Source: Cafeteria roenbergensis
Taxonomy: Eukaryota; Sar; Bigyra; Bicosoecida; Cafeteriaceae
DNA length: 64,000 nucleotides
Direction of reading: 5' to 3'
Assembly: GCA_008330645.1 (NCBI GenBank)
Contig: VLTN01000005.1
Location: forward strand, 62,001-126,000
A program made the translations under genes and the position numbers. This document shows positions 3,609-32,442 of this stretch, piece after piece; the first letter of the stretch is position 1; every line of letters begins with the position of its first letter. Below the pieces are notes generated by a model. That model was not told the DNA's origin. It was given only the letters and a program-made list of their open reading frames with translations, and did no database searches.

Positions 3609-4833
3609 TTGGCCTCGTCTGCAAGAGACTCCGAGGGGGCGACCCTCCGCGGCCTCGATGGGGAGGTGGCGAATCGGGCGGGGCGGGCGATGCTCCACCA
3701 AAACTTGCCGTGGTGCGCAGCCTGCAGAGCCTGGAATCGACGCGCTGCCGGTTCTGAATCTGTGTGTGCCGGCCATGCCGCGGCCTCCCGCTGCCACCGC
3801 CCACCGCCCCGCTGGCCCACATCCACGGGAAGGCGAGGTGCTCGCGATGGCGTTTCGGCTTTTCATGCATGCCAATCGCAACGAGCGAGCCCAAACCGCT
3901 GCAGGACTTGCCGTGGCCCGCCGCGTCGCCGGACTGGGAGAATCCGTCGAACTGGACAAAAGACTGCCTCTGAGCTGGAGCTGAGCCATTCTGGGGGGGG
4001 GTGCACGGCACCGGCAGAAGCGCGGACGCATCATGTCAGGCTCAACCACGCTATCGACAGAAGCACGCGTCGATCTTTGTATCATCATCGCCCGAAAAAA
4101 ACTTGAATCGTAAACGCGACTGCAGCGCCTGGACGCCGGTCCAGGAGCTATGCCAACCGAGGGAGTGCTTGCCCTGTGGGCTGCGCCGGACGAGACTTAT
4201 CCTGGACTAGACCTTCGTCGAAGCTGCCCAGATGTTTGTATGCTCCTGAGGGCCCTCGTGGCAGCCCCCTGCGATTGCATGCACGCATGATGATTAAACC
4301 AGCACCATAAAATTTCCCCCTATATCTTCGCAACTACAGCACGACGGGCCCAGTCGCAATGTTGTGTGAGTGAATTGAGCTCATAAAGCTCGCGAGGCCT
4401 GCCGGTTCAGGCTGGACCTGTTGTGTTTCATCGTTCACATCAGGGAGAATTGAAGTCGCTTGGTCAGCAGCTAAATTGCAGCAGATGCAACATTCGACGG
4501 TGCCTCCGACTCCTGCTGGACCCTCACGGTTCGGGTTGAGACTTGCTCCTGAATGTTGCTGTCGCTCGACAGTGCGACACCAGACTCGGCCAGCGCTCCG
4601 CCGTGTGAAACTCAATTTCGTGAGCTCCAACGACGGGCCGGCCTCTGTCACCCGCGTTGGACCCATGTTTTGGGCGCGTCGGCTTCGCACTTGCATTGCG
4701 CTCGCGCCGCAGTGGCCGGGCAGCCGTTGCCATCAGGAGGACCCCAGCTCGGCAGAGCGAGTTGGACTTGGCGTCAAACCTGCCCCCACTCACAGGATAA
4801 CGCCCGCAGGCCGGTCCGAGCGGCTTGCCGGGC
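3609..4833. promoter_or_regulatory. Long divergent intergenic region between the TraB-like gene and KATNIP
   Basis: The longest gene-free stretch in the window, about 1.2 kb between two divergent start codons, so it should contain both promoters. Its middle part, about 4030-4480, has only about 50-55% GC by my count of individual 60-base lines and is noted separately. Small open frames on both strands show no family features. I looked for a tRNA, spliceosomal snRNA or SRP RNA and did not find one. Confidence 0.45.
4030..4480. other. Low-GC island in a GC-rich genome
   Basis: Lines between 4081 and 4440 count at 30-35 G+C per 60 bases, against about 42 or more nearby. The stretch includes A-rich and T-rich words unusual for this window (an A7 run near 4096, TATATC near 4322). 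There are no terminal repeats, target duplication or coding similarity. It may be promoter sequence, an unrecognised RNA gene, or an old insertion. Confidence 0.6.
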
Positions 4834-7800
4834 ATGGCCGACGGGGCGGCCGCCAACCCGCAACACGTCGAGTACCTCCGCCGCTTGGAGCAGCAAGTGC
4901 AAGCACGTCGCCGCGCGCAGGCGGAGGCCGGGCAGGACGGGGCTGCCGATCTCGAGCGAGGGTTTTCGAGGTACAACTCCGGCGCGAACCACTCGCGCTC
5001 TTCCGCGAGGTGAGCCACGATTCCGCTGCAGTGGGGGTCACGCCCGTCGTGCGCCGAGTGTGGCCGCGGGGGAAGCCGGCCACGCCGTCCGCAAGGGCAG
5101 CGACCGCCGGGAGCGCGTGGCCGCACCGGCCACCGTTTGCACGCTCCGGTCAGGCACCGGCCGAGCACCCCTTGGGCTGCGATGCCCACCCGGCTTCAAC
5201 GACTTTGCTCGTACCACTCGTCCTCCCGCGCCGCGCAGGTCTCGCCCGCGCCAGCGGCCTCGCCCCGCTGACTCGGGCTGGAGCCAGGGAGGCGACTTGG
5301 TGATTCGAACCTCCGACGGCGAGCGCCAGGCCGTGCCAGGGTCGAGCGGGGCGTGCTCCCCGGTGTTGCCAGCAAGCGCGAGCCGTGTCGACAGCGGCAT
5401 GCCGAGCCACGGCGACGCGCCGGCCGGCGAGATGTCGCTGGACTCAGGCTCGCGCGCGCGTGGCTCCGAGGACGACGCAGCGGAGCTGATGCGGCTATTC
5501 CGGGGCCTGGAGAGTGGAACGCGCGGTTCGTTGCTTCGCGCGCTTCGCACGGCGACGGTGGCCCACCCTGACTCGGCCGCGGCGGCTGCAGCGGCTGCAA
5601 CGTCGAGCCTGGCGGAACCGGGTTCCGCAGCGCCTGCCGACCCCGCACGGCTCTCCCAGCAGCTCCTCTCCATCCTGCAGGCCGCAGGCACAACCGACCG
5701 GCATACTGACTCCCCTGGCTCCAGCGGGTCGCGGTCCGGCGGCCGGGCTCGCGGGGACGGCCCCGCCCACAGCCCGTCCCGAGGGTCAAGCAGCACAGGC
5801 GGCAGCCCGGCACCCGGCGCGGGGCAGGGCAGCAGCTCCTCGCCTCGGGCGCGTGGGTCGTCCCGTCGGGCGGGCGCCTCCGTCCTGCCCAAGGGCGTGG
5901 CCGTCACCGTGCGCATCCGCTCCACGCACGCGCCCGACCCCGAGGCCGGCTCCCCGCCGCGCCCAGTGGCCGTGGGCCTCACCGAAGTGCAAGTCTTTAG
6001 CACCACGCACCAGCTGCTGTCGCTGCCCACGGCGCGGGTGTGGCTGCGCCGCGACGCGGGAGGGGCAGGGCCCGCGCTTCAGCCGGCAGAGCCACTTTCG
6101 GACGCCGGGGAGGCGCGGGCGGGACTCGCAGTGCCGGCAGAGCGACTCATCAGCGGGTCCTTCAAGACGTGCAGCGAGCGCGACTCGTGGTGGGGTGTGG
6201 CCGGGGCCTGGCCGGGCGCCGGACCGTCTGGCGACGCCACGGAGTCGGAGCCTCCCCCACCGCTTGCCGAGATTCGGGTGTGGCTGCCCCCCGGCGAAAG
6301 CCCCGGGTCAGTTCTTCTGTGGAACTTCAACTGCTCCCGCCGCCCCAGGGGCGCCCCCGCTGCCGCCTGGCCGGCCGACGGGCCCTTGCTGGCGGGAGTG
6401 CGGGCTGTGGACGTGCTCGTCGGCGGACGCCTCGCCTGGTCCGGCGACGTCCTCTGCGGGTCCGGCAGAGCCGCGTCGCTGGAGCCGGCGGTCGTGCCCA
6501 TTGCGTCATCGCTCACGCCCGGCCGCCTAGGGCGCATTGTCAGGCAGGGCGAGGACGCGTCCGCCCGGCGAAGGCGGCGCAGCTCTGCCTCGTCGCAGCC
6601 ACCGGCGGCGGGCGCAGACGCGAGTCACGGCGACCGCGGGGATGCCAGCAGGAGCAAGTCGGAGTCTCAAAGCAGAGCTGGAAACGGGAGCGGCAGGGCA
6701 GGCGACGACGCAGCGCCAGCGAACGGGGCAGGCCTGCCCCCCCGCCGAGGCAGGGGGGGGGGCGTGCGCCGAGGCAGCAGCGACTCGAGTGGAAGCCGCG
6801 ACGCGTCCCCGTCAACGTCGTCCAGGGAAGCGGGCTCCCTCCCAGCCGCCCCGCCGTCCCCGTCGCAGTCCTCCTCCTTCGCCTCCTCGTCCTCGCCGCG
6901 CTCCTCAGCGCGGCGCAAGCTGCCCCCCCCGTTGCGCTCCTCCTCGCCCGCGCGCAAGGCTGGCTCGTCCCGGTCGTCGTCGCCCTCTTCGCCGTCCGGC
7001 AGGGACCCCCTGCTCGCGTCGTTCAAGCCGCTGCCGCGCGGAACTGGCGCCTCAAGCCCGCGGGCGAGCTCGGCCCAGCCGGCGCGCGTCGGGGCGGGCA
7101 GCGGCCCTCCTGTTGGAAGAGTCTCCCCGATCCTGAGCCCTGCCCGGACGCCCAAGGCCGACCGGTCGTCGGGGCACGGCTCGCCCACCAGGAGCGGTGC
7201 CGAGGCAGCAGGGTTTGCCGCGGCTGGGGCGGGGGGCCGCTCGGCTGCCCGCCGCGCGCGAGTGGTATCGCTGGCCTCTGGCGGAAGCGCCACCGTTGGC
7301 GACGAGGCGGGGCCGAGGTCGGGGGCGGAGGCAGGGGCAGGGGCAGGGGCAGGGGCAGGGGCAGGGGCAGGGGCAGGGGCAGGGGCAGGGGCAGGGGCAG
7401 GGGCAGTGGCAGGGGCACCAGGTTCCGCCGGGGCGAGAATCACGCCCGCAGCTGCTCGGCGGCTGTCCGGGGCCGGCGGCGCGGAGCAGGACTCGCTGAC
7501 TGCCGAGCTGCAGCGGCGCCCCACCTCCTCCGCGAGCAGGCCCGGCTCTGCCGCAAGTGCCGCAGCGAGAGCTTCCCCCAAGCTGGGGGGGTCGACTTCG
7601 GGTGCGAGCAGGGGCGCAAGGGCCGCGGCTGCTGCGGCTGGGAGCAGCCCGGTGGCGCAGGCTCCCGTCTCCACAGCAGCCCGGCTGGGGTCGTCGGAGC
7701 TGGCTGCGCGGCCGGGCTCCGCGTCCCGGCGCCCGCTCAGCTCGGCTGCAGCCCGGCTGTTGGCAGGTGACGCGCCACTCTCGGCTGCGTCGCCGACGGC

Positions 7801-10800
7801 GTCGCCGGCCGCTGCGGCAGCGGCAGAGGCTGCGGGCGGGGGAGGAGGGCCCCGTGGCCGGCGCACCAGCCCCGTTGCCACGGGACGGCCTGGCGCTCTG
7901 GCTCCGACATCGCGGCCTGCAGCGGTATCGCGCGGCCCGGTGATGCCCAGGGCTGACATCCTGCCCATCGCTGGGGGAAAGGCTGGCGGCGCCAAGACTG
8001 CGGCGTCAACGTCTCCAGTCCAAGCCCCGCGCCTTGACCCTGCCAGCGTGCCAGCGCCTGGCCAGGCCGCGTCTCCCTCCGCAACGGCCACCTCCCCTGT
8101 CGGCAATGCCCGCTCCGACTCGGACCGCCCCTCGCGCCGGGAGGCGGCCCTCGAGCGGTCGCTCGATTCGCTGAGTTTCTTTGCCGCTCACCACCGAGGC
8201 AGGGTGGAGGCCGCCGCAGCGGAGGCCGCCGCCGCAGAGGCCGCCGCCGCCTCCGAAACATCCCAAAGTGCGGCAGACGGTACAGGCGGGGCGCTCGCCG
8301 CGGGCAGCGCGAGGGCGGAGGCCGGGGCGTCGCCAGCGGCTCTGCTCTCGACCAGCGCGGTGTCAGAGTCGTCGGCGGTCATTGACGACGCCGCCGCCCT
8401 GCTGCGCGAAACGGACGGCGCTCTGCCGGCGTTGTCGGAGGCCAGTGACGACGACGGCGAGGGAGACGAGGGCGTGGGGGCTGGCGGGCTGGGCGCGAGC
8501 ATGCGGCGCCGGGACGTGGCCTCCACGCCTCGGGCATCGAACGCTTCCAGGGCAGCAGCAGGGGGCGCCTCGCTCGCCAACGTGTCCATGGTGGACGTGC
8601 CCGTCCTGCCTGTGGGGTCCAGCCTCACGTTGACGGTGCGCTCCACCTGGGGCGACCCGCACTACGTGGGGCTCTCTGGAATCGACCTGTTCGACGACAA
8701 GGGCAGGAGGGTGCTTGCTGCCGGCCTCAGACAGGACGGGACACCGTCGCAGCCTGTGACTCGAAAGCAGACCGGGGACAGGGTGGAAGTGTCACTCGGT
8801 GCGCCGCCCCCCGGCCCAGACTCGCCTGCAGTGATCGTGGCGGCCGCGGCGACGCCCGGGGACGTCAACGTGCTGGACGGCTACGGGACCGACCCCCGAA
8901 CGGTGGACAAGCTTGTTGACGGGCACGGCTTCACGAGGGACGACTTGCACTCCTGGCTGGCTCCGTGGACCCCGGGAGCCAGCGCGACGATTGAGCTGGT
9001 GCTGAGCAAGCCGGTCTCTCTCTCCATGGTGCGGGTGTGGAACTACAACAAGAGTCGCGTGCACTCCTTCCGGGGGGCCCGCTCGGTGCGGATGGCAGTC
9101 GACGGCTTCACCGTGTTCGACGGGGAGGTTCGCAAGGCGCCCGGCGACCTCACCGACGCGGCGCAGTGTGCCGAGTGCGTTCTCTTCACCACCGACCCGG
9201 CGGTGCTGGGCACGCTCTTCGGGGACACGAGCGGGGCCAAGGGAAGGGGCACGGCCGCCGAGGGGGCGGGCCAGGACCCGGAGCACGAGTGGACCGCCGA
9301 GGCGATGCGCGAGGACGCGGTCCGCATGCTGGCTCTCCGGCGGCCGGACACCGCGGACGACACGGCCGACGCGGGTGCAGCCGGCAAGCCTGGGCGGGCG
9401 GCAAGCGCTGGGCGGCTGCGGCGGCGCAGGCGCGGGCCGCAGCCTGAAGAGCGGTTTGAGGACGCGCTCAAGGCCGAAGCTGCCTCACCCGCGTCGGGAG
9501 CGGCAGCGGGGGCGGGGGGCGGCGACACGGACTTGCAAGCCCTCCTACGCGAGGCCGCGGGGCTGCAGTCCGGCAGCGCGGCTGGCGCGGGGGCGGGGGA
9601 TGCGAGCCCCGAGTTCAGGCCCCGCACGGGAGCGGTGCGGCCGGCGCCGCCCCGGAGAGACCTGTCCTCAGCGCCGAGCGGGCTCACCGACCTGGACAGC
9701 AGCGCGGGAGGGGCGCACGTGGGCAGGCGCGGGGCCGAGGCTGGCGGCAACGGCGGGTCGACTGGCGTCCGCCGCTCCGTGCTGCCGCTGGGGGCGCAGG
9801 GGCGGTGGTCGCCGTGGGACGTTGCTCCGTGCGCGGAGGGGTGCATCATGGAGGCAAAGGGGCTGCCCCGTGCACGGGTGCTGGAGGTGGAGCTGGTGGA
9901 CACGCACGGCGACCCCTACTACGCAGGCCTCAGCGCGCTGCGGGTGCTGGCCGCCAACGACTCATCAGGGGTGGTCGAAGACTTCCCGCTCTCGGCGTCC
10001 ATGCTGTCCGCCAGCCCCAAGGACATCAACGTGGTGAGCCAGCGGAAGCGGCCGGTTCCGCGTGGAGTTTGCGCGGTTTCGCGCGCGATCGCGTTGCCTG
10101 GTTGCCCCTTCCTGTGCCTCGCGCGCGCCTGCTCGCTTTGCTGCTGCTGCGGCTCCTGACCTGCTCCGTGTGGGCGGGCTCTGCAGGTTGCGGTTGCCGC
10201 CGCCGCCGCCGCCGCCGCTGCTGCTGCTGCTGCTGCCGGTGCCGTTGCTGCCACCCGCCTCTCCGATCGCTGGCTTTCGCCGCGCAGGACGGCCACTCGG
10301 GCGATCCCCGCACGCTGGACAAGCTGGTGGACGGGGTGGATGTGACTTGCGACGATACGCACATGTGGCTCGTGCCGTACACGGAGGGCGAGCGGCACTG
10401 GCTGCGCGTAGACCTTGGACGGACGGTGTCCCTGGCAGGCGTGAGTCGCAGCGAGGTAGCCACCGTCGATTTCGAGCCGGCGCCGCGCTGCTTCCGCCGG
10501 GCTGCGGCGCAGCGCGCCCACGCCCAGCGCCGCTGTCGAGTCGCGCTCCTGGAGATCCGTTGCGCCCCCCTCGCGCCCGCCACCCCCCCCCCTCCCCCGG
10601 TCTTGCCCCACCTCCGCGATTCGGCTCACTCCCCTCCCCGCCGGAGTGCATCGCAGATCGTTCTGTACAACTACAACAAGAGCGCCGACGATGCGAGCCG
10701 CGGCGTCCGCACCATCTCGCTGGCGCTGGACGGCCGACCCGTCTTCGCCCGCGCGGCGGGCCACCCCGCCACCAACGACTCATCCGACCCTGGCGCCCCG

Positions 10801-13038: not shown

Positions 13039-15691
13039 TCAGCCCGAAAGCAGGCCGGCGGCCTCCAGCTCGACCCGCGATTCAGCTTCCCGTGGCACCA
13101 CCTCGTACTCCTTGAAGTGCATCGAGTAGCTGGCCTCGCCGGCAGAGAGGCTCCGCAGAGTGCCCGCGTAGTCGCCCGCAAGCTCGGCGAGCGGCGCCTC
13201 GGCCACAACGATGCTGCGCCGGCCGTCGGGCACCACGTCCAGCACCCTGCCCCGGCGGTGGGACGAGAGGTCGTTGAGCACAGCGCCGGTCTCCTCCGTG
13301 GGGGTGGAGATCTCCAGCGCCATGACGGGCTCCAGCATCACCGCGCCGGCGTCGCTGATGGCAGCCGTCACGGCCGCAGCGGCCGCTCCGCGCAGCGCCA
13401 CGGCGGTGGTGAGCGGCGACACGAAGGTGGCTGCCGGGTCCAGCTCCAGATCCACGCCCAGCATGGCGCGCCCGATGCGCGGGCCGCGCTCCAGGGCGGC
13501 GGCGAGGGCCTCTTGCAGCGCGTCGGACAGCGCCCGCGAGAGGGGCGCCGGCGGGGGCATGCCGCTCGCGACGGAGGCCGAGGCCAAGTCGGCAGACTCG
13601 TCGCCGGACGAGACCAGCCTTGCCCGGAGGCCCCTGGCAGGCGGGGCGTCTTCCGCGGCGTCGCCCTGCACCTCCGGCTCCGCCGCCGCGGAGAGCAGGT
13701 CGGGCTCGCCTGCCCCGCCGCGGAGAGTGTTGGCAGCTCCGCAGCCCGCCTGCGCCGCCCGGACCTTGACCGCGACTCGCGCCCAGTGGCGCTTGCCGTC
13801 CAGCGCGCGGTCGAACACCGCGGCGAAGCGGCCCTCGTCGGACACGCCTTCCCTGTACGCCACGGTGACCCGGCCGAGCGTGACCTCCGCCACCCCGAAC
13901 TCTCTCCTCAGGCGCTCCACGGCCACCTCCAGGTGCAGCTTGCCCATGCCCGAGAGCAGCAGCTGGCCCGTCTCCGCGTCCTCGGTGACCCGCAGGCTGG
14001 GGTCCTGCCGCACCAGCACCTCGAGGGCGGCCTCGAGCTGCCGCTGCTGGCCCGCGCTGTCGGCCTCGATGGAGGCCGTGAAGACGGGTTCGGGCAGCAG
14101 CAGGCCGGGCAGCCTGACCGCCTCCTTGGCGTTGGACGACGCGCAGAGGGTGTCGCCAGTGCGGGCGCGCTTGAGGCCGGCAGCGGCGCCGATCTGGCCG
14201 GCGGGCACTGCGTCCACCTCCTTGTCCTCGTCCGCCAAGAGCTGCAGCAGCTTCGAGGGCCGCTCGGCCGGCCCCGGGCTTGTGGTGTTGATGAGCGAGG
14301 CCCGCGTCATGGTGCCGCTGTACACGCGGAAGTAGCAGAGGGGCCCCCTGGTGGGGTGGGCTGCCACCTTGAACACAAAGGCGGCGAGGGGCGCCGTGGC
14401 GTCGGGCCTCAGGGCGGCCGACTGCCCCTCCTGCGCGACCAGCGCGGCGGGGGTGGGCGGCACGTCCAGCGGGGAGGGGAGGTACTCCCGCACCGCGTCC
14501 ATCAGCGGCTGTACGCCGACGTTCTTGTACGCCGAGCCGCACAGCACGGCCACGGTGGGGCTCCGGTCGGCCGCGCCGTCGCCAGAGGGCGCCTCCAGCG
14601 CCGGCTGGGAGAGCGTGATCCGGCGCACGGCGGCGCGCACGTCCGCAGGCGTCAGCCCAGCGGCGTCCGGCGAGGACCCGTCTTCCGCCTCCATGAAGGC
14701 TTCGGCCAGCACGTCGTCAGCGTCGGCCAGCCCCTCCAGCATGGACTCGCGACACTCCATGGCCGCCTCGACAACGTCCTGGGGAAGGCCTGCCGGGGCC
14801 ATGCCGCGCAGGCCCGGCGCCGCGTCCACGAGGGGAGCGGACGCAACGATCTCGCCGTGCTTGCCCTCGAACCGCAGAACCTGCATGGTGAGCAGGTCGA
14901 CCACCCCGCAGAACGCGCCGGCGTCGCCGAGCGGCATTTGCAGCGCCACCGGCCGGGCGCCCAGTCGGTGCCGCAGGCCGTCCATCACCCGCTCGAGGGT
15001 CGCGCCCTCGCGATCCAGCTTGTTTGCGAAGGCCACGCGCGGCACGCCGTACCGCCGAGCTTGGCGCCACACCGTCTCGGACTGTGCCTCTACGCCGTGC
15101 ACCGCGTCGAACAGTGCGACGGCGCCGTCCAGCACGCGCAGCGACCGCTCCACTTCGACAGTGAAGTCCACGTGGCCCGGGGTGTCGATCAGATTGAAAA
15201 TGGTGTCCTGCCAGGCAAACGACGTGGCGGCAGACTGAATGGTGATGCCGCGCTCGCGCTCCTGGTCCATGAAGTCCATGGTTGCCTGCCCGTCGTGCAC
15301 CTCTCCAAGGTTGGAAATGGAGCCAGAGTACAGCAGCAGCCGCTCGCTCAGCGTCGTCTTTCCTGCGCTTCGCCAAGGCCAACCTCGCAATCGCTCGTCG
15401 CGCATCTCAGAGGCTCGGGGCTCCAGGCGCGCGTCGCGGTGAAGTTCGAGGCAGCAGCCTGCCGGAGCGGGGCATTGCGCGAACTCTGTGCGGCCACCGT
15501 CGGGGCTGACGCCCTCGGCTGCAAGCCTCATCCTCACCAGCATCGATGTGCGCAATGATGCCGCAGTTGCGGATGCGGGCCAGGGCCTCGGACGCCTTGC
15601 GCGGCCCTCCGCTTGCAGCCCGGGCGCCGGCAACGCGCCCCGCCCTGCCCTTCCATGCCGCGACGCCACGGGTTGCAATCCTCCCGATCAT
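13039..15691 (-). CDS. GFM2: Mitochondrial elongation factor G2, ribosome recycling (GFM2/RRF2)
   Basis: GTPase that splits mitochondrial ribosomes together with the recycling factor. Two exons, 15538-15691 and 13039-15362; the 175-bp GTGAGG...CAG intron cuts the P-loop inside AHIDAGKTT, a phase-1 join that restores the motif exactly. The product is 825 residues. The first 30 residues are Arg/Ala-rich without acidic residues, typical of a mitochondrial presequence. G-domain motifs follow: AHIDAGKTT (G1), RGITIQSA (G2), DTPGHVDF (G3), NKLD (G4). The later EF-G domains contain GPLCYFRVYSG, LPEPVFTASIE and SGMGKLHLEV. The SLGEVHDG segment and the sequence QERERGITIQSAA fit EF-G2 better than the translocase EF-G1 (GFM1), though without an alignment that subfamily choice is provisional. 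A poorly conserved, acidic insert of about 45 residues lies before the C-terminal domain. Confidence 0.9.
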
Positions 15692-15990: not shown

Positions 15991-18900
15991 TCAGAAGCGG
16001 ATGGTCACGCCGCCGGCCGACATGGTGCCAGCCGAAGACGATGCCACTGCTGTCGTGCGGGAGGTGGCGGCCGAGGTCCCCGAAGCGGGCGCCGCGCGCG
16101 AGGCCAGGGTGGGAGTCGAGCCCGTGGAGAGGCCGAGGAAGGCCAGCGGGTCGATCTCGTCGGCAGGGGCAGCAGGCGCCGGCGCACGGGCCGCAGCCTT
16201 GGCGGGCACCCGGGCAGGCGTGGCCGCGGGAAGGGGGGCAGGCGGCGAGACCAGGCCCGGGGGCGGGCGGCGCAGGGCTGCAGCCTCGGGCCCGGCGCCA
16301 GCGGTGCGGGACACGGCGGCGGACGACTGCGGCGTGAAGCCCAGGCCCGGGGGAGGGCCGCGCGGTGCGGGCGCAGCGGGCGCCCTGCGCACAGGCGTGG
16401 ACGCCTGGGGCTCGGCCGAGGTGGCCTGCAGGAGGGACAGGACGTCGTCGGCGGCAGTGCGGCGGTCCTTCGGGGCGGCCTCCGCAGCGACGCGCGCCTT
16501 GTCCGCGCGGGCCTTGGCCTGAGCGGCGTCGTCGGAACCGGGGGGAGCGCCTGCGCGCGCGTTGGCATGGGAGTGCGTGCGAGTCGCTGCGTGGGCGCGA
16601 GAGCCGCCTCCGCGCGCCTTGCGAGAGCGGGCCTCGGCCTGCTGGCGCTCGCGCATGCGCTGGAGGTAGTCGGGGCCGGCGCCGAGGGGCACCTCCGGGA
16701 TGGTGGCCGCGCGGGCAGCGGCGGCGCGCTCCTCCTCCGCGTCGATGTCAGCCTGCGTGGGCGGCGCCGGCTGCCCTCCTGCGCCTCCGGCGTTGCGGCC
16801 GTGGCGCCTGGAGCGGCCCTCGCCGCCGGCCGCGGCGCCGGCGGCTCCGCCTTCCGCGTGCTCCTCGTCGGCGGCGTCGCGGGCAGCCCGGCGCTCCCTC
16901 TGCGCGTCCTCGGACTGGTTGATCACCTCCCTCACGGCAGCCTCTGCGGCCTCAACCGCGGCGGCGGAGCCGTGCACGCGCACAATGCCGTCGTCAGCCT
17001 GGATGTCGATCCTGGCTCCCGGGTTGTCAGCTTGGATGCGGCGCACCGTCTCGCCGCCGCGGCCGATGACCGCAACAGCGCTGGAGCGCGAGCACTCGAT
17101 GACCACCTCGGCCTCGGCGCCCGGCGCCCCATCGGCCGACACGCCGGCCGCCTCGAGCGCCTCCTTGATCATCTCGTGGGCACGCTCCACTGCCTCGGCA
17201 GTGTCGGCGCTGACCATGACGTGCGTCCGGTCCTCGCTCACGCGCAGGCCGGCGCCAGTCTCGGCGATGATGCCGCGGATCGTCTCGCCGCCGCGACCCA
17301 CCACGGCGCCGGCACCGCCCGCGGGAATGGGCACCGAGCGCCGCAGGCTGCCGATGCGGGCAACCTCGGCGGCGAGGCTCTCGACTGCGGCCATTGCCTC
17401 CTCGGCAGACTTGCCAACGACGCGGATGACGGCCTTGTTCTCGGCCAGAACGGCCATGGCCTCGGTGTCGGCCGCAGCACGGTCGTCTCCCGGCTTGAGC
17501 ACCTGGAGGCGGCAGCCAGTCTCCTTCTCCAGCTCCATGATGCGGGCGCCCCCGCGGCCAACGATGGCCGGGATGAGCTCGAGAGGCAGGGGCACGACGC
17601 CGCGCAGCGCGGCGTGCGCGGCCGCAACAGCTTGCACCTCAGCTCGCGCGGCAGCGACGGCTGCTTCCGGGCCGCAGAGCACCGCATGGCCGACGGCATG
17701 GTTGACCCAGACGGAGGCAAGGCCGTGGCGCGCGGCCAGCGAGTCTGCGGAGAGGCGCGAGACGGCCTCGGTCGGGGCGGGGCCGGGCCCGCGGCGCTGA
17801 GGAGCGGTGTTGGCGTCGCGCATGATGGCCTCCAGCACGCCCGGCGGGCACGGGACGCGGGCCATCTGGCTGGCGAACTTGTGCGACAGGGCGAACTCGA
17901 TGGACGCCTGCGCGTCGCCGAGGCGCTCGGCGTCAGCCGCGGCGAGCACGCACAGGACCAGGCGCGGCCCCTCGGACTCGTCCTCGTCCTCGTCGTCTTC
18001 CTCCTCGCTCTTGGCGCGCGGCTCGGCGGCCGGCGCGGAGGCAGCGGCCGCCGCATCGGCGGATGCGCCCGCAGCGGCCATGCCGGCGCCTGACGCCGTG
18101 CCCCACAGAGAGGACACGAGAAGCGAGTTCGTGGGGGCGGCCGGGGCGGGGGCGGCAGAGCGGCGGGCGCTCCAGCCGCGCATGGTGCAGCGCACGCCCG
18201 AGGCGGACAGGCGCTCCAGCACGGCGCGCTCGGCGCCGAGGAGGCACTCGGCCATCGCGGGGAGGAGGGGCAGCACGGCCTGGGCCTTGCCGTCGGCGAT
18301 GGCGCGGATGGCGGCCTCTGCAGCCTTGGCGGCGGCAGTGGCGCCACGGATGGTCACGCGGGCGGCGGTTGGGTCGGCTGCCGCGGCGCTGCCGCGGGAC
18401 CGTCCGCCAGTGCGGCCGCCGGAGCGGCCTCCGGTGCGGCCGCGGGACGCTGGGACCCCGGGGCGCCCGTCGCTGCCGCCGGCTGCAGTTGCGCCGCGGC
18501 GGAGGTCAATGGAGGTGCGCGTGAGGCGCTGCAGCGACTGAATGGTGGAGCCGCCTGCCCCGACGATGGCGGAGACTGCCGACGCGGGCACGGAGAACTC
18601 AATCACGGTCTTGGAGCCGTCCTTGACGGTCTGCGTGAGCTCTGCCGCGGCGGCAGCGATGGCGTCCTCCTCACCGCGCACGAGAAGCAGGCCCTTGACG
18701 CGGTCGACGGCAACGACGACGCTGTGGGTGTCCTGCAGCTTGCGGAGCGAGGCGCCCCCGCGGCCGAAGACCATCGGGAGGACGCGGTCCGCCTTGGAGC
18801 GGTCGTAGGCCACCTCAACTTGAGGCTTGTCCATGCCTGTCTGCTCGCGGATGTGGGCCACGGCCGCCTGAAGCGCCTCCTCCGACTCTGCGCGGACGGT

Positions 18901-21900
18901 GACCTGGCCGGAGGACTGGTTCACGTTGACGTGGACGGCGAACTCCTCCTCGATGGCCTTGACGCCTGCGCCGCCCTTGCCGATGACCGAGAGGGCCATG
19001 TCGGGGCCGACGTTGAGGCTGGCGTGGGTCTTGCGGTAGGTGTCCATGGCCTCGCGGAGGGCGGCGGCGCCCTTGGCCACCTGCTCGGAGGTGCCAATGA
19101 CGAGGAAGACGCCGCGCGCCGAGTCGATGTCGATGCGGGACCCGCTCTCGGACTGGAGGGAGCGGATGTTGGCGCCCTTGGTGCCGATAATGGCGGCGCG
19201 CACGTCGGGGTCGTCGGCGCCAGGCACCTCTTCGCTCTGCTGCGATTCCATGATCTTCTCGATGGCGGCCACGGCCTTGGTCACGGCGTCGTCGAGCCCG
19301 CTGACGTGAACGGTCGAAGGGCCGTAGGCGCGGCGCTGTGGCCGGCGGCGGCGCTTTCCTGCGTCACCGCGGCCCTTGCCGCCGCCGGAGCCGCGGCCCC
19401 TGCCCGAGGCGGAGGCGGCGTCGGCGGCGGCGCCGTTGGAGTCGTCGTCGGCCGATGCGCCAGCAGTCTTGAGGGCCGGGCCGCGCTCGAGCGTGATGCT
19501 CGCGCCGGAGTCGGACTGGAGCTTGGAGATGACAGCGCCTCCGCGGCCGAGAATGGCCGGCACGGCGTGGTCGGGCACCGTGATGCTTGCCTCGCGGAAG
19601 GATGCCACCGCCTCGCGCACCATGGCCTCGGCCTCGGTGAGGCGGTCCGCGTCCGACTTGGGAGCATCAGCCTTGTCCCCAGCCTCGTCCGCTGCGGCCG
19701 CGGCCGCGGCGTCGGCGGCCTCGTCGTCGTCGGCGGCGTCCTTTGCGGCGCCCTTGCGGGCTCGCTTTCCGCCCTTCCCGCCCTTGGGCGGCGGCACGGT
19801 GTCCACGCGCAGCACGATGACTGCCTTTCCGGGGGGAGGGATGACCGCATCGTCGGGCTCGTCGCGGCCGCCGCGCCGGTCGCCGCCCCTGCGGCTGTCC
19901 TTGGAGGCCGGCTCGGGAGCGAAGGCGACGTTGAGGGCGACGCCCTTGGGGCAGGCCGAGCGAAGCTTCTTGATCTCGGCACCTCCGCCGCGAACGATGG
20001 CGCGCGCGGCCGCAGCAGGGACGATGACGCGGCGGCGGCCTTCCTGGAACTCCTGGTAGAGCTCGAGAAGGGCGGCCTTGGCCTCCTCCCCGAGGGTGCG
20101 GCGGGCGCGCAGAGTGAAAGTGCGGCTGGGCAGGCGGACGCCGTCGGCGGCAGCCGGAAGGAACAGCGAGGCGGCCTCGTCCTCCTCGTCGTCAGAGTTG
20201 CTGTCGGAGTCCTCGGCCTCGTCGTCGTCGTCGTCGCCATCAGCTGCGGCTGCCTGGGCGGCCAGCTTCACCGCGCGCGCAAGCACATCGGGCTTGATGC
20301 GGTCCCCGATGTCGAGGTCGGCGTCGGGCACCTTGGAGCGGAACTTGGCGATGTTGGCAGCACCGTGGCGAAGAAGGAACATCGCGAAGGAGGACTCGAG
20401 GCGCAGCACGGTCTCGACCCGGCGGAACTCCTCGACCAGGTCGCGAACGGCCGCGACGCCGCGAGCAACCGCCGCCGGATCGCGGCCGAACACGGTGACT
20501 CCAGTGGCAGACTCTGCACCCTTGGACGCACCGGCGAGGGCGGATGCGGCGTCCTCGGGGCGGTAGGACTCCACGACGACGTTGCACTCGTCCTGCACCT
20601 TGCGGACGCGGCTGCCCGCAGGGCCGATGACGTCGAGCACCACGGTCATTGGCATCGGGAGCGACTTCGCGATGGCCTTGAGCTGCTGGATGGCCTTGAG
20701 GGCGGCGCGCACACGAGGCATGCGGCCCTCAGCCTCAACGCTGGCGCTCTTGCTGGAGGCGTCGCCGGCGTCTGCGGCGCCCTTGCGAGCGCCCGACGCG
20801 CCGCGACGGCGGGACGGGGCGCTGCCTCCCCGGCTGAGGTTGAGCCTGACCACGTGCTCCGCCTCGACCTCACGGATCAGGGCGCCGGAGTCGTGCAGCA
20901 GGAGGTTGAGCACGCCGCGAGGGACGTCAACGCTCGCGGTGTCGGTGGCGCAGAGGTCGAGAACGTACTCGGTGGCGGCGCCGATGTCGTCAGCGAGGCC
21001 GCGGATGAGCACCGACGGCGTGGTGGCGGCGGGGGCCGCATCTGCAGCCTTATCGCTGCCCGGGCGTCCACGGCGGCCGCGGCCGCTGTCGCCGCGGCCG
21101 CGAGCCGCGTCGCGGGCGGGGTCCTCGATGTCCAGCACGACGCCGAAGCGGGACTCCACGCGCTTGCGGGTGGATCCCTTGGGGCCAATGATGCGAGGCA
21201 CAGCCGCGGGCTCGATTGGGATAGTCTTGGAAGCGATGTCGTCGGCGGAAATGCCCGAGATGTCCCCGCGCGCTTCCAGCAGACGGTCAAGGAGCATGGC
21301 GTTGCCGAGGCCGGCGCTGCAGTCGTCGAGTTCGGCCGAGAGGGCGTCGAGGGCCTTGCTGATGCCGTCGCGTTCGTCCTTGAGTGTCTGGACCTGGGCC
21401 TCCAGCTCGTTGTAGTCTCCCACGGTCCGCATCCGCATGCGGATCTGGTCCATTTCGCGGATAAGCTGCTTTTCTGCGTTGAGGGACATCGTGGTCGTGG
21501 TGCGCTGCTCCTCCAAGTCCTCAAGCCAGTCTTCGTAACGCTCGATGCTGGCGTCTGGGCGGCGAGGCATGCGACGGACGATGGCGTCAATCTCCGCGCG
21601 AATTCCCTTGTTCCGGTCCTGCGGCCCAGCAAGCGAGCGGCAAGCCAAGGGCAAAATGGCGAAGCAGCGCGACCGGGTCAAAGAGAGCGCGCGGGGGGCG
21701 GGGGCGGAGGGAGGAAGGGGGGAGTGTGTGTGTGGGGGGTGCGGCACTGCGCGCTTCGCCCTTGGGCGGCGCTGGCCAGCGCGGGTCGCGAGCCGCAGTC
21801 GAGGCACCGAGTCGCAGCGCGAGGGGCCAGGGGCCGAGTAGACGAAGGGCAGCGCACGCGCACTGGCGACACGGGCGCGCCGCAGCTTGGTCCCGCCCGC

Positions 21901-22564
21901 GGCTGCCTCGCCCTCGCGGCCGGCGGGGGATTGCGCAGCGTTTGATCGCGCTGGCCGGCAGCCGATGGCGGCCGCAAGCAGATGCTTGCCGGGCTTTGGC
22001 GGGCCGCAACCACCGCGACCGACCGCGCGCTGCCAGAGAGCAGGACCAGCCTTGGTGTGGGGCGCTGGCGCGAGCCCTGGGGGAGGGGAGGTCTCTCCGG
22101 CAGGCAAGCGACCAACGCGCGCAAAAGGGGAAGAGGCGGACAGGGCAGCGAGCCGCGCACGCCTCAGCGCCCGCGCGGGGGGTGTGGGCACCACCGTGCT
22201 CGACGGACACGCGAGTATCCATGCGGGCACCTGAGGCGCGGCGGGCAGCGCGCGAGGGCGGGCCTCCCAGGGCGAGGCGAGCCCGCGGCCGCCGGCGAAG
22301 GCAAGCGCCCGTCCACGTGTGGCCGAGCAGGATCGGCGCCGGGTCGGTCAGTGGCCGCGCACCAGTTGGGCATGGCTTTCGGGGCAAGCCGCAGCTCACA
22401 ATCAGCGCGCGGCGCTTGTCGATCAGCTCCGTGCGGCGGCGGCGCAGGGCGTCGGCCACGGACACCCTGTCGCTGGCTGCGGCGTCGGGGCTCATCGTGT
22501 CCAGCCCGTCAGCAGGCCCAGAGAGCGGGCCCGTCGAGAAGAACGACGAGTCTGCGGACGCCAT
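15991..22564 (-). CDS. Bfr1-like coiled coil fused to a vigilin-type multi-KH array
   Basis: A 1,930-residue RNA-binding protein. Exon 1 is 22400-22564 and exon 2 is 15991-21618, joined in phase 0 across a 781-bp GTGAGC...CAG intron. Residues 1-165 are charged and helical: RRRRTELIDKRRAL, then IERYEDWLEDLEEQ, TTTMSLNAEKQLIREMDQI and VQTLKDERDGISKAL. This order and wording resemble yeast Bfr1, where a short acidic helix is followed by SLVQEKLLVKEM. From about residue 190 come some 14-15 KH units. Around ten to eleven keep a GxxG loop (GPKG, GPAG, GRGG several times, GTKG, GKGG, GAGG); the others, such as LLHDSGALI and LLRHGAANI, are degenerate. This is the vigilin/Scp160 pattern, where 14-15 KH domains are usual. 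The last 270 residues are Ala/Arg-rich and disordered. The likely role is an mRNP scaffold on polysomes or ER. Confidence 0.85.
21619..22399 (-). other. 781-bp intron of the Bfr1-vigilin gene
   Basis: The longest intron I modelled. Donor GTGAGC at 22399 and acceptor CAG at 21619-21621 join in frame. It contains T/C-rich stretches and a short GT run near 21725-21735. A small additional exon inside it cannot be excluded from sequence alone. Confidence 0.65.
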
Positions 22565-22962
22565 GGCGACTGCCGTGGCACAGGACTCGGCCGCTGCGGT
22601 TGGCGGGCTCCCGTAGCCCAGGAACGGTGGCCCCGCGCGCGAAATCCCGTTTCAGCGGCAGCGTTGCTGCGCGGCTGTTGTCCGCCTGCAAATATCCGAG
22701 ATGCGCGGCGCTGCCTCTGCTTGCATCGGGCCGTGCTGCACCAACGCCCCTGCCGCACTGCCGGCCGGGCCAGGCGGGGCCATGGCAGCAGAAGCCTCGG
22801 CAGCCGGGGCTGCTGGTGCCGCTGCTGGGCTTCCCGGGGACGACGGCGGGGACCCGTGAGGCGCGCAGTGGCGCCCGCGTGGGCAACTGTGCGATGTGCC
22901 GCCGCCGTTTTGCAACTCTGCGCCCGCCGCCCCTGCCGCTGCGCTGGTTTGACCGCAGCGAC
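22565..22962. promoter_or_regulatory. Bidirectional promoter region of the Bfr1-vigilin gene and MRE11
   Basis: About 400 bp between divergent start codons. No TATA box is visible. The sequence is of ordinary GC for the window, and the open frames crossing it lack family features. The promoter assignment is from orientation alone. Confidence 0.45.
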
Positions 22963-25900
22963 ATGCTCCGCATTCTCGTGTTCACGGACAACCACTGCGG
23001 GTTCATGGAGCGCGACGCTGTGCGGGGCGAGGACTCGTTCCTGGCGTTTGAGGAGGCGCTGCAGTTCGGCCGCAAGGAGGGCGTGGACTTTGCGGTGAAC
23101 AGCGGGGACATTTTTCACGAGAACCGGCCGTCGAGGTATACGAACCATCGTGTGCTCTCGGCGCTGCGGACGCACTGCATGGGCTCTCGGCCGATTCGGT
23201 TCGAGCTGCTCTCCGACCAAGCCCGCCACTTTGGCAGCGAAGGCAAGTGAGGAGGTCCCGCGCACGCGCTTTGCTCGCAGGCAGTGCGGCTGGTCCTCGC
23301 TAGCGTGCGCGCGCGCCGCAGCATCGACGCCGCGGCCCGGTGCCCGGACTCGTGCCCGCAGGTTCCGGCGGGTGAACTACATGGACCCCCATTTCAACGT
23401 TGACATGCCCGTGTTTTGCATCCACGGCAACCACGACGACCCCACCATCGATCGAGGAGATGCGGTGAGCGTGGCTTGGCGAGTACTCGGCGTGGCCGCG
23501 CCGGGCGGAGAGGCAGGGGCTGGTGGCTGCGGTTGCAAGCCCGCCCCAGTTGTTGCATTGCCCTTTTGTGCCCCTAGCGCCGCAGTCGCTCGGAGCCCTG
23601 CACGTGCTGGAGGCCGCGAACATGGTCAACTACTTCGGGCGGCAGCGTTCCGTGGACGACATCGTGCTGGAGCCGCTGCTGTTTCGCAAGGGCAAAACAC
23701 AGATGGCTCTCTATGGTCTCGGCAACATGCGCGACGAACGCCTTCACGCCGCTTTCATGGCAGACAAGGTGCGCTTCATGCGGCCCACGAACGCGGGATC
23801 GTGGGTGAACGTGCTGCTGATCCACCAGAACCGCGAGGACCCCAGGCGGGGCCTGAAGAGCTGCATCAAGGTCGACTTCATCCCAAAGTTCATCGTGAGC
23901 CGCTGCTGCAACTTGCTCTCCTCGCGGCCGTGGCTGCTGCTTGCGTGGCCGCGCCTCGCATGGGGCGGCCACCCACCGCCCCTGGCCAACCGCCCTCCCT
24001 GCCCTCCGCAGGATCTTGTGATTTGGGGCCACGAGCACGACTCGCGCATCGTGCCGCAGCCCACGGCAGGAAACCACTTCTTCGTGAGCCAGCCTGGGTC
24101 GAGCGTGGCGACTTCCCTCATGGAAGGGGAGGCCCTCCCCAAGCACATCGGCGTCCTGGAGGTGAAGCACAGCCGCTTCCGCATCGTTCCCCACCGCCTG
24201 CGCTGCGTGAGGCCTTTCCTCACCGAGTCGGTGACTCTCGCACAGGAGCCGGCCGTGTCCAGCGCCATGGCCGCCGAGCGGGCGGAGGGCCTCGCGCTTG
24301 ACGACGCCATGCCGGCTGGCTCGGCCGCAGTTCGCGCAGCAGTGCAGGACGCATTGGAAGCCAGGGTGGAGGCGCTCGTCAGGCGGGCAGCCGAGGAGCT
24401 GGCCGCCCGGCCCGCGGACGAGCTGCCGCCCAAGGCGCTGCAGCTGCCTCTGGTGCGCGTCAGGGTCGAGCACACGGGGCTCCCGGCCCTGTCAAACAAG
24501 ATCTTCGGAGCCGAGTGAGTTGAGGCAGCGCGCTGGAGCCGAACGGCCTCGCTGCCCACGCGACCGTCGCAGCGGTGGCGCAGCCCGCACGCTTGCCTGC
24601 TCCCCCGCACGCTCCAGATCTCTGACTTGCTTGGCCAAGACTGTGCGCGCTCGCAGCTTCGCGGGTCGTGTTGCCAACCCTGGCGACATATTGCTGTTCC
24701 ACAAAGCTCGCCCAAAGCGCGAACCCCGGGGCAAGGCGGCTTCGTCGGCCGCCGCCGGGTCGGACCTCGACGAGCTGATTCAGCACCAAGGCGACGGTGC
24801 GGACCGGTCGAGCATGACGGACCTCCTTCGCGACACGCTCAAGGGGATGGACGGGAAGCTGCGCGCGCTGACGGACGTCCGCCTCATCGGCGCGCTCGAG
24901 CGATTTGTGTGGGAGAACGACGCCGCGGCATTCCAGGGTGAGAGCGTGCAGCTTGCTTGCAGCAGAGCGAGCTGCGCGCGTGCCACCTTTCCCTCCCCTG
25001 TGACAGTGGAGCGGGAATCCACGCAGCGTCCGATGGCCTTTTGCTGGGCCAATGTCCGCCCGCCCGCCCGCCCTCCCGCCTGTCTGCCCGCCTGCAGAGA
25101 TGGTGGACCAGCGACTCAAGCGACTACAGAGGAACCTCATGGACCAGGCTCACGCGCAGCTGGGCGCTGGGCGCGCGCAGCGAGCGGACTCGGTGGGCAA
25201 GCTCATCGAGGAGGACACTGCTCGAGACCACCGCTCATGGGTGCAGCGCAGACAGTCCACGCAGCAGCGCGCCAAGGAGCAGTCGGAGGAGGCACTTCGC
25301 AGGCTCGGCGCGGCCGTTGGCGTCGGCGAGCGTGCCGGCGCGGCGACGCCGTCAGCGGCAGCAGCTGCCGCCCCTTCGCGGCCATCCGTCGCAGATGCGC
25401 CTCCTCGGCGAGGCCAGGCCTCCGCGGCCCGGAGCAAGCGTGCGGGCAAGCGACCCAGGCCCAGCGCACCCGCAGAGGGCCCTTCCGCGTCCTCCGCAAA
25501 GGCTCCCCGCGGCCTGCCAGTTGTGGAGGAGACGGACACGAGCTCTGACTCAGAGTTCGAGGGCAGCGAGCCGCGGGACCGGAGCCGGCACAGGCGCACC
25601 GCCGAGGGGGGATACAGCCCCGACATCGGAGCCCAGCCGCATTCAGCTCGACGGCGAGCCCCTCAGCGCGGCGGAGCAGCCGGTGCCGCCGGAAGCGAGG
25701 GCGACGACGACGACATTTCGTCCGACGACGGGGCGGGGCCTGTTCCGTCGGGGCTGGATGTCTCGCGGTCGTTGCCCCGCAGCCGCCGCACTGGGCCATC
25801 CATGAGCAGGAGCCGCAAGCGGAGCCCTAGTCGCTCGCGGTCCAGAGAGCCGGCTGCAGCAGTCATTGCGCTCAGCGACGACGACGACGACGATGTTGGT

Positions 25901-26184: not shown

Positions 26185-29100
26185 CTAGACAAGCATGCCC
26201 CCAGTCTGGGGGTTGATCATAGAGAGAGTCGGGGCAGCCGCGCCCTGGGTGCTTTCGATAGCCGAATACACGTTCCTGTCAAACTGCTGGAAAAAGGGCC
26301 AAATGCGGAGCGCCTGCTCGGAAAAGTCTGGGACCAGCACGAGGCCGCGCACCCAGCGGCGGAGCGGGTCCTTCCCTGCGCGAGAGACCGGGCCCAGGCA
26401 CTCGGGGGGCGGGGCCAGGTACTGCGGGTTCCGAAAGCGGCTTGCAGACGCCCGCAGCATAGCCCACTCGGGCACCGAGCAAGCTTGCATGCCTGCCGCG
26501 GCGCGGTCGGACTCGTTGTCGAAGAGGAAGGCGCCGCCCCACCCCGCCTGCGAGACGATGAAGACCTCCTCGAGGAGCAGAGGGGTGAACTCGAAGCGCT
26601 CTGGGAACTGCCGGTACACTTGAAAGACGCAGTCGAGCCACTGCAGGAAGATCGGCGAGGCCTCTTCGCTGTCGCAGTGCAGCCGGCCCATGCGCTCGGA
26701 GAACTTGTGGCCGAACTGCAACCAGTCAGTGGCAATGAGGGTCTGGAACCCGTCCAGCGTGCGGTAGTACGGGTCCATGAGAAGCTTGGCGAGCGACGAG
26801 ACCTGGGCGGTGCGGTCCCAGCCGTCCGAGCAGTGCACCAGCACGGAGATGCCCAGCGCGTCCACGAGCCGCACGCACCGCACCGACGCCGCCAGGATGT
26901 TCGAGGCGAGCGAGAGCCACCCAGACTCGGACACCTCTCGCATGAAGGGCGAGCGCTTGCCCACGTCGTCCAGAACGGCGCTGAGGCCAAGAGGCTGGCC
27001 CAGAGTTGTGGCCGCCGCGACGCTGTCTGCAAACTCGGGCGTCCAGTGCGCGGCGGACGCGGCCGCCGGGCTGAGCCGGTCCGGGCCGGTGGGCGGGGGA
27101 GCACCGCCGCCTCGCGCGATGATGTGCCGGCTCGCGGTGCGCGCCGTGTCCCGCTGAAAGTGGCGCTCCTGCAGCGCGCGAACGCTCGGCACGATGGCCG
27201 CCGACGGCCTGCGGCACGCTCGCGCGAGGGCGTTGTACGACTTGCGGACCGCGTGGATGTTGGCGATGTTGCAGAAGAGCACCGAGCACCTGGAGTACCC
27301 CATTGACTCGAAACCGCCGCCCTTGAGCATGTTCGCCTGGGCGCTCAGCACCGGGCGGCAGTCGATGATGGCCAGCTGGTCGGCGGGGCACGGGCTCGCT
27401 CGCCTGATGTGCTCAAGCAGCTGCTCATCGTGGGTGCTTCGCTGGCCCATGGCCCCGGTCAGCGGCTGGCTGGAGCGGCAGATGGCCGCGCCGTTGGCCG
27501 GGTGATACCACGTCAGCGCAGGGACGCGACCCTTGGACCGGAACAAGGCGGCGGCGCGCACCACGATGTCGTCCGCGCGCGCCGGAACCACGAATGCCCG
27601 CGGGTATGAGCGCGAGAGGCCAAACGCGTCGTTGAGGCGGCACGCGCGCCAAAAGGCGGCAGGCACGCCCTGCCGCCGGAAGTCGGCGATGGAGTCGCCG
27701 GCCATAGTCTGCCATGCAACGGCAGACGCCCTCGAGGCGTCTCGCAGCCAGCTCCGGATCTGCGGCGACACAAGCACCTTTGCGCCGCGCACGGCGCACG
27801 GGGCGCCTCCGGGCGGCTCAGCAGGCAGGGGAGAGTTGTCCAAGTCGTCCTCGTCGTGCTCGCCCGCCCGCTCGCCCGGTTCCCTGCTGCCCTCTCTCAG
27901 GAGCGAAGACACGTGCGTCGCGCTCTGCGCCGCGAAGGCCGTTTCGGACGACCGCGACGCGATGATCTGATAGGCGAGGCGCGTGCGCAGCAGCTCGCAG
28001 ACCACTGGGGCCGGCGCCGCGTCGGCGTCGCTGGGCCCCAGTCCCAGCGCCTCGTGCTCAGGCAGGACGCCAGCGCCGAGGATGATGAACCGGGGGGCGC
28101 GGGCGTCGGTGGTGACGATCCCCAGCACCGGGAGCTGAGCCTCCGCAAAGGAGGCCGAGGTGCCCGCGGCCAGCGACCCGAGCATCGTGGTTTCGTCTAC
28201 CCGAGGTGCCTGGCCGCCGCCGGCCCCTCTGCCGCCTCTGGGCGTGGTGCCGCCTGCGCCCAGGTTGCGTCGGCTCTGCGCGCCGGCCTTGGGCGACCCA
28301 GCCGCTTGCTTGTCCGAGGCTGTTCGGGCGAGCGCGCCCGCCCGGGGGTCGGATGACGCCGGCGGGCCGGCGCTTGGCTCCGCACCGCCCGCCTGGCTGC
28401 TGGCTCGGTCGCCGGGGCCGGCTCCGACCTCAGCCACCGGCGAAGTGTGCACACTGCCCGGTCCGGCCGCTGTGGGCGCAGCTGCCGGGACCTTTTCGTC
28501 TGCCGGCGCCCGCCCCGCTGCTGCTGCCGCCGAGACCTGCTCCACCACGCGGACAAGCTTGGCTTCGCGTGCCCAGCGGGCCTGGTCGGCCGCTGGGCCT
28601 GTCGCAGAGAGGGCCATCATTGCAGGTGTCATGGCAACGGACAGGCGCCCGGTGCGCCGGCGCCCACCCGTGCCTCGCGACCTACGCAGCATGTGCGCCG
28701 CGGAGCGCAGCGCGGCAGCGGACGAGCCCTGACCGGCCGCGGGCGAGGCAGCCGCGCTGTCCTCGGACAGCTGTCCCCCCTCCGACGACGGTGTGACAGG
28801 CAGTTCGACAGCGAGACGTGCGCCACCGATGGCAGGCGGCCGCGCCGCTCTGAAGGCGACAGGGAGCTCTGCCAGCTGCTCGCCCTCCTCGCTGCGTCCC
28901 GACTCGCTCACGGAGGAGCCCGAGCGCAAGGCCGGCGAGGTTGGCGACTCGGCGCCCGACGGAACATGCCTCGCAACGGGGCCGGGGTCGCGGTGCCGAG
29001 GAGGCGGCGGTGGCCGCGAGCGCGGAGGAGGGGGTTTCGGCGCGGCCGACCTGCTCGGCGGGGCTGGCGCTGCGGTCGCCACGATCTCGTCGGGCGCAGC

Positions 29101-32076: not shown

Positions 32077-32442
32077 GTCGGACGCGCGGGGCTCGCGCCC
32101 CCCCGGCCGCAGTCGGAGTGCGGAACGCCTGCCTCAACTTGGACAGAGCACTGTTCGCCAGCCCCGAGCGCCTAGGCACAAGAGCTGCTCCGGCCGGCCG
32201 CCGCCAGCAGGCAGGTCCGACGCACACGGACAGCAGCCGTCTGGAGTGCTCGTTCCTGCCGCAGTTTGGAGCGTGTGGTTCCTTGCGTGCGTTGACATCG
32301 TCGCGGCGGCCGGCTGTTTGTACGGACGCAACAACACGAATCGCAGCTCTCAGAGTTGAATGATGCACTCTGCAGGCCAAACTGCGACGACGGCGGCACG
32401 TCGACCGCCCCAACAGGCCTCGCGGCCCTGGGAGCGCAACGG
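32077..32442. other. Intergenic region upstream of the myotubularin gene
   Basis: About 365 bp between the myotubularin start and the stop of the MMADHC-like gene, both on the minus strand. It should hold the myotubularin promoter and the 3' end of its neighbour. I see no repeat, RNA gene or coding similarity. Confidence 0.45.

Follow-up and report, generated by a model that had tools for sequence, protein, structure and literature searches.

A two-exon gene on the minus strand of a 64,000-nucleotide stretch of the Cafeteria roenbergensis genome (contig VLTN01000005.1, positions 62,001 to 126,000; hereafter the window) codes for a single chain that likely joins an N-terminal hairpin of the Bfr1 superfamily to a vigilin-sized array of KH domains and a C-terminal tail with candidate GYF-domain ligands, a new combination of domains of known kinds. 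We propose, with a probability that we put at about 0.6, that this protein is a vigilin-like messenger ribonucleoprotein (mRNP) scaffold into which a hairpin of the Bfr1 type is built. The fusion bears on the question of how Bfr1, in which no RNA-binding domain of a canonical kind is present, cooperates with Scp160/vigilin on polysomes bound to the endoplasmic reticulum (ER).

Gene structure and the hairpin-KH join

The gene model (Table 1) was examined by means of the G+C content (GC) of codon positions, in a window whose overall GC is 71.6%. Exon 1 has a GC of 0.65/0.60/0.89 at its three codon positions, and the intron is flat at 0.75/0.75/0.75, on account of which a coding reading of the intron was rejected. 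Along exon 2, scanned in 12 blocks of 450 nt with the final 228 nt outside, the third codon position has the highest GC in every block, including the one that spans the border between the coiled coil and the first KH unit (KH1), the contrast being weak in two of the 12. Furthermore, joining exon 1 raises the score of the N-terminus against the archaeal family profile described below from 31.8 to 37.9 bits, while reading through the intron yields 30.3 bits. The codon-position GC and the gain from exon 1 together make the intron and the exon join credible without transcripts. The gene boundaries and the 21618/22400 junction, predicted earlier from the letters alone (the sequence-only reading), are correct. 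That reading had also held that the joining of the N-terminal helices to KH1 needs no splicing; this is indeed so, as the exon-2 part of the hairpin and KH1 lie in one unbroken reading frame on the same uninterrupted exon.

A KH array of vigilin size

Most of exon 2 codes for KH domains. The Pfam KH_1 model matches it with E=1e-84, recovering 10 stretches at a lenient limit of E<=10, and this match, set against the lack of a canonical RNA-binding domain in Bfr1, identifies the protein as a fusion rather than as Bfr1 proper. A hidden Markov model (HMM) of the repeats delineated 12 units at 39.7-54.1 bits, scores that are inflated by its having been trained on the protein's own repeats. When ten fragments of the array were scanned singly in Pfam, KH1 and the units starting at residues 921 and 993 scored above the cut-off and the unit at 373 fell just under it (21.0 of 21.5 bits); no KH match was returned in these scans for the units at 283, 584, 1308, ~470 and ~1160, which make up five of the 15 places. 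The array comprises 12 clear KH units and up to 15 with the degenerate ones. Several units bear long inserts in their variable loops, two of these with arginine-glycine-rich (RG-rich) runs. A scan of IMG/VR with the last three units gave 11 pattern matches and no relatives.

Are these KH domains those of a vigilin? A profile of the 12 units, confined to a 42-position core, was compared with the PDB and placed structures of FUBP, Nova, PCBP and IGF2BP on top, with the vigilin KH domain (2ctk, 23.6 bits) beneath them, a ranking that counts against a vigilin ancestry. Because of it we use "vigilin" as an architectural statement: the label rests on the length of the array, and the individual units look generic. 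Hence an alternative explanation merits consideration, namely that the fusion is real and the array is a lineage-specific expansion of some other KH protein, in which case a Rosetta-stone argument connecting Bfr1 and Scp160 would be void. The structural ranking and the long, partly RG-rich loop inserts speak for such an origin, which we nevertheless consider less likely than not, in view of the number of units. We know of no other multi-KH family with 12-15 units. A run of 12 to 15 tandem type-I KH domains falls in the range of vigilin and Scp160, to each of which 14 are ascribed in a passage of PMC10011833. The sequence-only reading had counted about 14-15 units like those of vigilin/Scp160; our count is 12 clear and up to 15, and the likeness is one of array length, the units not being closest to vigilin among solved structures.

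The N-terminal hairpin and its probable archaeal relatives

Direct library searches of the N-terminus in Pfam, NCBIfam and the PDB recovered weak generic coiled-coil matches only, the best among the Pfam coiled-coil models being Seryl_tRNA_N (23.8 bits, E=5e-5, under the curated cut-off of 28.2), and an IMG/VR scan gave five pattern matches and no relatives. Pfam and the PDB cannot decide membership of the Bfr1 family, because yeast Bfr1 itself, searched there, returned nothing useful. The sequences of yeast Bfr1 and of Arabidopsis PPI1 used throughout were entered by hand rather than taken from a database record, and results involving them are to be read accordingly. Both align in register with the same place in the N-terminus, with pairwise scores that were reached by 1/1000 (Bfr1) and 4/1000 (PPI1) residue shuffles and by 1/1000 heptad shuffles each; reversal of Bfr1 lowered its score from 72 to 57. 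These pairwise matches are a lead, short of a test.

Using Bfr1 and PPI1 as bait in 15 archaeal genomes, we obtained weak matches in three, one of which (L122, E=0.5) is a free-standing frame of 299 residues and was chosen as family seed because of this free-standing shape of about 300 residues. Related proteins were found at E<=0.001 in 52 of the 121 genomes of the seed's own phylum. With a 20-row alignment, they were detected at the same threshold in 97 of the 99 genomes sampled from the phylum to which a Lokiarchaeote metagenome-assembled genome belongs (89 at 1e-9 or better, the latter genome itself only at 1e-4) and in 97 of 100 genomes of the phylum of Methanosarcina, all 97 at 1e-22 or better. 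The Pfam family DUF7121 (PF23435) matches two of the four archaeal members scanned. In 90 archaeal loci (L126-L215), the family genes lie near a DUF373 gene in 28 and near a GPN-loop GTPase gene in 25. We take this family of coiled-coil proteins to be COG1340. The latter is characterized in a passage of PMC1322226 as "a highly conserved group of archaeal proteins of unknown function".

A profile built from 30 archaeal sequences matches the window's protein with 31.7 bits at a bias of 1.4, and PPI1 and Bfr1 with 43.7 and 35.7 bits, respectively, at the same place, all of them in register at a short motif predicted to form the tip of the hairpin. By its sequence, the archaeal family looks like a prokaryotic relative of Bfr1 and PPI1, and this profile link hints that a eukaryotic mRNP factor arose in the archaea. 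The archaeal signature I..rI.eiEWkIQTssLsleEEkrLi.evk.Le aligns without gaps to IERYEDWLEDLEEQRTTTTMSLNAEKQLIREMDQI of the protein in a MAFFT alignment, and the tip block shares 13 identities with L182, its top archaeal partner by BLOSUM score. The sequence-only reading had noted Bfr1-like wording in SLNAEKQLIREMDQI and VQTLKDERDGI; both are present, the diagnostic part being limited to the residues around TTTTMSLNAEKQLIREM.

An AlphaFold2 model of exon-2 residues 1-300, with exon 1 outside the model, has helices at 2-16, 25-41 and 46-122 (mean predicted local distance difference test score, pLDDT, 67.8, rising to 92-97 over exon-2 residues 31-100), and that of an archaeal relative, computed from its own alignment, has helices at 4-102, 109-125, 130-273 and 279-287 (mean pLDDT 92.3). 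In both, a first helix is followed by a linker of 6-8 residues, a tip helix of 17 residues, a linker of four residues at the QT/TTTM motif and then a long helix that runs back. The arms in the fusion are shorter, at about 39 (its start placed by eye) and 77 residues, and KH1 starts ~8 residues beyond the point at which the long helix is predicted to end. Foldseek searches of the PDB with both models found nothing at E<=0.001, the best structures listed being mostly coiled-coil or helical proteins.

Is the hairpin more than a generic coiled coil?

The principal challenge to the assignment is that the N-terminus might be an unrelated antiparallel coiled coil, serving in dimerisation or spacing, which has converged on Bfr1-like wording, the protein then being a multi-KH protein with a cap. 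The weak matches of generic coiled-coil Pfam models would be in keeping with this. Shuffling of the sequence argues otherwise: the score of 31.7 bits was reached by none of 5000 residue shuffles, none of 5000 heptad-preserving shuffles, none of 5000 shuffles of 7-residue blocks and one of 5000 shuffles of 14-residue blocks (HMMER scored 4569, 4875, 4978 and 4994 of the 5000, and unscored ones were taken as below), while the reversed core attained 8.6 bits. As further controls we assembled 39 open reading frames (ORFs) of at least 400 residues from 22 loci, wrong-frame ones included; these loci are weak matches in long open frames, for which an SMC/Rad50-like label would be by length only. From those with a combined glutamate and lysine content above 22%, 477 windows of the same length were cut. 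With a 90-sequence profile, the 133-residue core of the protein scored 39.8 bits at low bias (residues 1-200 scored 37.9), above all 477 control windows (maximum 34.8, mean 12.0 bits). In the window, the hairpin is the only significant match among 543 six-frame ORFs (E=2e-7, the next being 2.7), and twenty archaeal models of equal depth and length gave it 27-28 bits on average (range 20.7-37.2).

A number of results weigh on the other side. The pairwise alignments are weak: BLAST with only the two sequences gave an E of about 0.02, and PPI1 scored 69 forward and 66 in reverse. DUF7121 matches neither the protein at E<=10 nor Bfr1, and is absent from the 25 of 33 families listed for PPI1. Seven whole control ORFs scored 39.9-54.0 bits, against 37.9 for the protein, albeit with a huge bias of 85-157, and one control ORF of low bias (L219, 2.0) reached 28.1 bits. 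The scores of the tip motif alone are modest: it reached 8.6-11.4 bits, a value equalled by 37 of 9871 heptad shuffles, and with the same 66-column motif model, which recovered no recognisable relatives in the PDB, unrelated chains there attained up to 18.8 bits, more than the protein's own motif-only scores. A second motif model gave the protein 9.4 bits and the 477 control windows at most 7.2, and eight of 10,000 shuffles equalled the former. A test with permuted-column decoys was non-discriminating, as the protein had the highest z (19.1) and generic windows went up to 17.5. Finally, the kink in the model of the window's protein is not independent evidence, because 21 archaeal rows were part of its input. 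On account of the chance scores in the PDB and the seven control ORFs, we set the odds for both the superfamily assignment and the scaffold proposal slightly lower.

Even so, the low-bias, in-register match over about 115 residues, the higher score of the core than of all control windows of matched length, the scarcity of shuffles that reach its score and the tip anatomy common to both models make convergence of a generic coil doubtful. We accordingly hold it quite probable, on the strength of these sequence comparisons, that the N-terminus belongs to a superfamily of hairpins that includes Bfr1, PPI1 and the archaeal proteins. An N-terminal match beyond generic coiled coil, on which the sequence-only reading depends, is supported in the matched-length comparison and the shuffles; its Bfr1 identification holds in part, in that the wider superfamily is likely, with the direct pairwise match to Bfr1 being weak and only a shortened hairpin being present. 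A seryl-tRNA-synthetase (SerRS)-type tRNA-binding hairpin grafted onto a KH array, suggested by the coverage of most of the Seryl_tRNA_N model, is very improbable and was rejected, since that match is below the Pfam cut-off and equalled by an archaeal family member (L151, 24.0 bits), and since a 19-row SerRS-N model, which included a wrong-frame row (L239), gave 9.8-13.7 bits and was outscored by the archaeal family models of equal depth.

The C-terminal tail and a proposed mechanism

The last 305 residues form a low-complexity, proline-rich tail with two occurrences of PPPGL. As reported in an excerpt of PMC12171015, GYF domains bind PPG followed by a hydrophobic residue (F/I/L/M/V). None of 20,000 shuffles of the tail reached two PPPGL, a statistic that comes from shuffling the residues of a segment already rich in proline and for this reason is to be counted less in favor of the proposal than it might seem; one further PPPG-hydrophobic motif was found in the window's 109,623 six-frame residues, within the intron frame of this same gene. 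The motifs suggest a possible built-in link to a translational repressor of the Smy2/GIGYF type.

A passage of PMC8783092 relates that yeast Scp160 interacts with Bfr1, that the two have target mRNAs in common and that they occur on ER polysomes, and the yeast SESA network comprises the GYF protein Smy2, Eap1, Scp160 and Asc1, according to an excerpt of PMC8583833. Considering the vigilin-like scaffold with a Bfr1-type hairpin in this light, we posit that the KH array, in the manner of vigilin and Scp160, might clamp mRNA on (ER-bound) polysomes through many contacts at once, and that the hairpin might project as a stalk from its KH1 end. The conserved tip would then engage the same partner, on the ribosome, the ER or the mRNP, with which yeast Bfr1 makes contact in trans, and the PPPGL tail would recruit a GYF-domain translational repressor of the Smy2/GIGYF type. 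One chain would thereby unite functions for which yeast uses Scp160, Bfr1 and the SESA network of Smy2/Eap1. The fusion might point to a direct partnership of Bfr1 and Scp160, as the sequence-only reading had supposed. Two observations from the yeast literature are adverse to this: the co-immunoprecipitation of Scp160 with Bfr1 is RNA-dependent according to a passage of PMC8783092, and therefore the contact may be indirect, and Bfr1 goes unmentioned in the excerpted text of the paper on proximity at the 40S head (PMC8583833).

A more far-reaching version is conceivable, in which Bfr1 derives from the archaeal hairpin family, the hairpin is a dedicated vigilin stalk and the protein is a one-chain counterpart of Scp160, Bfr1 and SESA, its hairpin, next to KH1, docking on the ribosome or the ER and its PPPGL motifs recruiting a GYF repressor. 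The protist would in that event preserve, or have re-created, the two as one chain, and the fusion would define how the yeast complex is arranged. Taken jointly, these propositions are speculative and rather improbable.

Genomic context

Downstream on the same strand lies a gene for an EF-G-type GTPase (13042-15687, minus strand; Pfam GTP_EFTU, EFG_III and EFG_C), which we guess to be mitochondrial, and a divergent upstream gene (~22900-24500, plus strand) reads by eye like Mre11 (FTDNHCGF..., NSGDIFHENRPS). Pfam matches were obtained for four of seven neighbouring frames, namely DUF4457, the EF-G domains, PH with myotubularin, and PIF1; the DUF4457 frame presumably codes for a KATNIP-type ciliary protein. 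Together with the intron, these neighbours are those expected of a eukaryote, and the DUF4457 frame hints at one that bears flagella.

Table 1. Coordinates of the fusion gene, its parts and neighbouring frames in the window
Feature	Position (strand)	Residues	Description or basis
Two-exon gene	22564-15991 (-)		product 1930 aa, zero internal stops
Exon 1	22400..22564 (-)	1-55	ATG start, opens ATGGCGTCC
Intron	21619..22399 (-)		781 bp, phase 0, GT-AG (GTGAGC...GCAG)
Exon 2	15991..21618 (-)	56-1930	ends in TGA; remaining hairpin, KH array, C-terminal tail
Start of hairpin helix 1	last ~17-23 codons of exon 1		matched by the profile from residue 39-40 on; residue 33 estimated as start by eye
Hairpin, exon-2 part	21253..21618 (-)	56-177	as predicted: last part of helix 1, tip helix (17 residues), linker (4 residues) and the long helix 3
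Hairpin-tip motif	21442..21552 (-)	78-114	ASIERYEDWLEDLEEQRTTTTMSLNAEKQLIREMDQI; in register with archaeal consensus
KH array	16909..21228 (-)	186 to about 1625	Pfam KH_1, own-repeat HMM, two units by eye
12 KH units		starts at 186, 283, 373, 584, 732, 853, 921, 993, 1061, 1395, 1482, 1560	own-repeat HMM
Borderline KH unit		1308	own-repeat HMM, 2.4 bits
Degenerate KH units		near 470 (LLRHGAANI) and 1160 (LLGAERAVL)	by eye
PPPGL	16342..16356 (-)	1810-1814	candidate GYF-domain ligand
PPPGL	16252..16266 (-)	1840-1844	second candidate GYF-domain ligand
DUF4457 frame	4553-10156 (+)		Pfam
PH-myotubularin frame	26188-32133 (-)		Pfam
PIF1 helicase frame	59058-62204 (+)		Pfam

Comparison with known systems

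The resemblance to vigilin/HDLBP, Scp160, Vgl1 and DDP1 lies in the long tandem array of type-I KH domains, several of them degenerate, that takes up most of the protein; it is architectural only, and the fusion differs in its additional N-terminal hairpin, the long inserts in the variable loops and the PPPGL tail. Bfr1 of Saccharomyces cerevisiae (IPR039604 / PTHR31027), by its hand-entered sequence, shares the tip motif in register, and the superfamily is helical and mRNP-associated. Whereas Bfr1 is a separate protein of ~470 residues without canonical RNA-binding domains, the fusion retains the tip and shortened arms only (about residues 33-177) and attaches them to KH domains. The plant protein PPI1 (proton pump interactor 1), whose tip motif was matched through the archaeal profile, is likewise a separate protein and is not known to have KH domains. 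The archaeal family of about 300 residues is linked to the fusion by the profile match, the tip motif and the predicted tip of helix, linker, 17-residue helix, linker and helix; its members, in contrast, are free-standing, the one modelled having arms of ~100 and ~140 residues, and near their C-terminus they possess a conserved segment, KLxxGEKLtFEEFK, which the fusion lacks.

A further member of the Bfr1 family associated with mRNPs, to which we liken the fusion by description, is ERBP1 of Trypanosoma brucei, an ER protein that preferentially binds the mRNAs of ribosomal proteins, as described in a passage of PMC7025706. The same source lists, as its nearest matches outside the kinetoplastids, proteins of unknown function from Galdieria, Phytophthora, Ectocarpus and Phaeodactylum. 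Among the literature matches listed, as judged from titles, the starts of abstracts and passages, there was no report of a fusion between a Bfr1-type hairpin and KH domains, and such fusions may be common in protists. As a natural fusion, the Cafeteria protein would imply that hairpin and KH array act at one place, with the hairpin positioned at the KH1 end, and it singles out a short tip motif that is open to testing.

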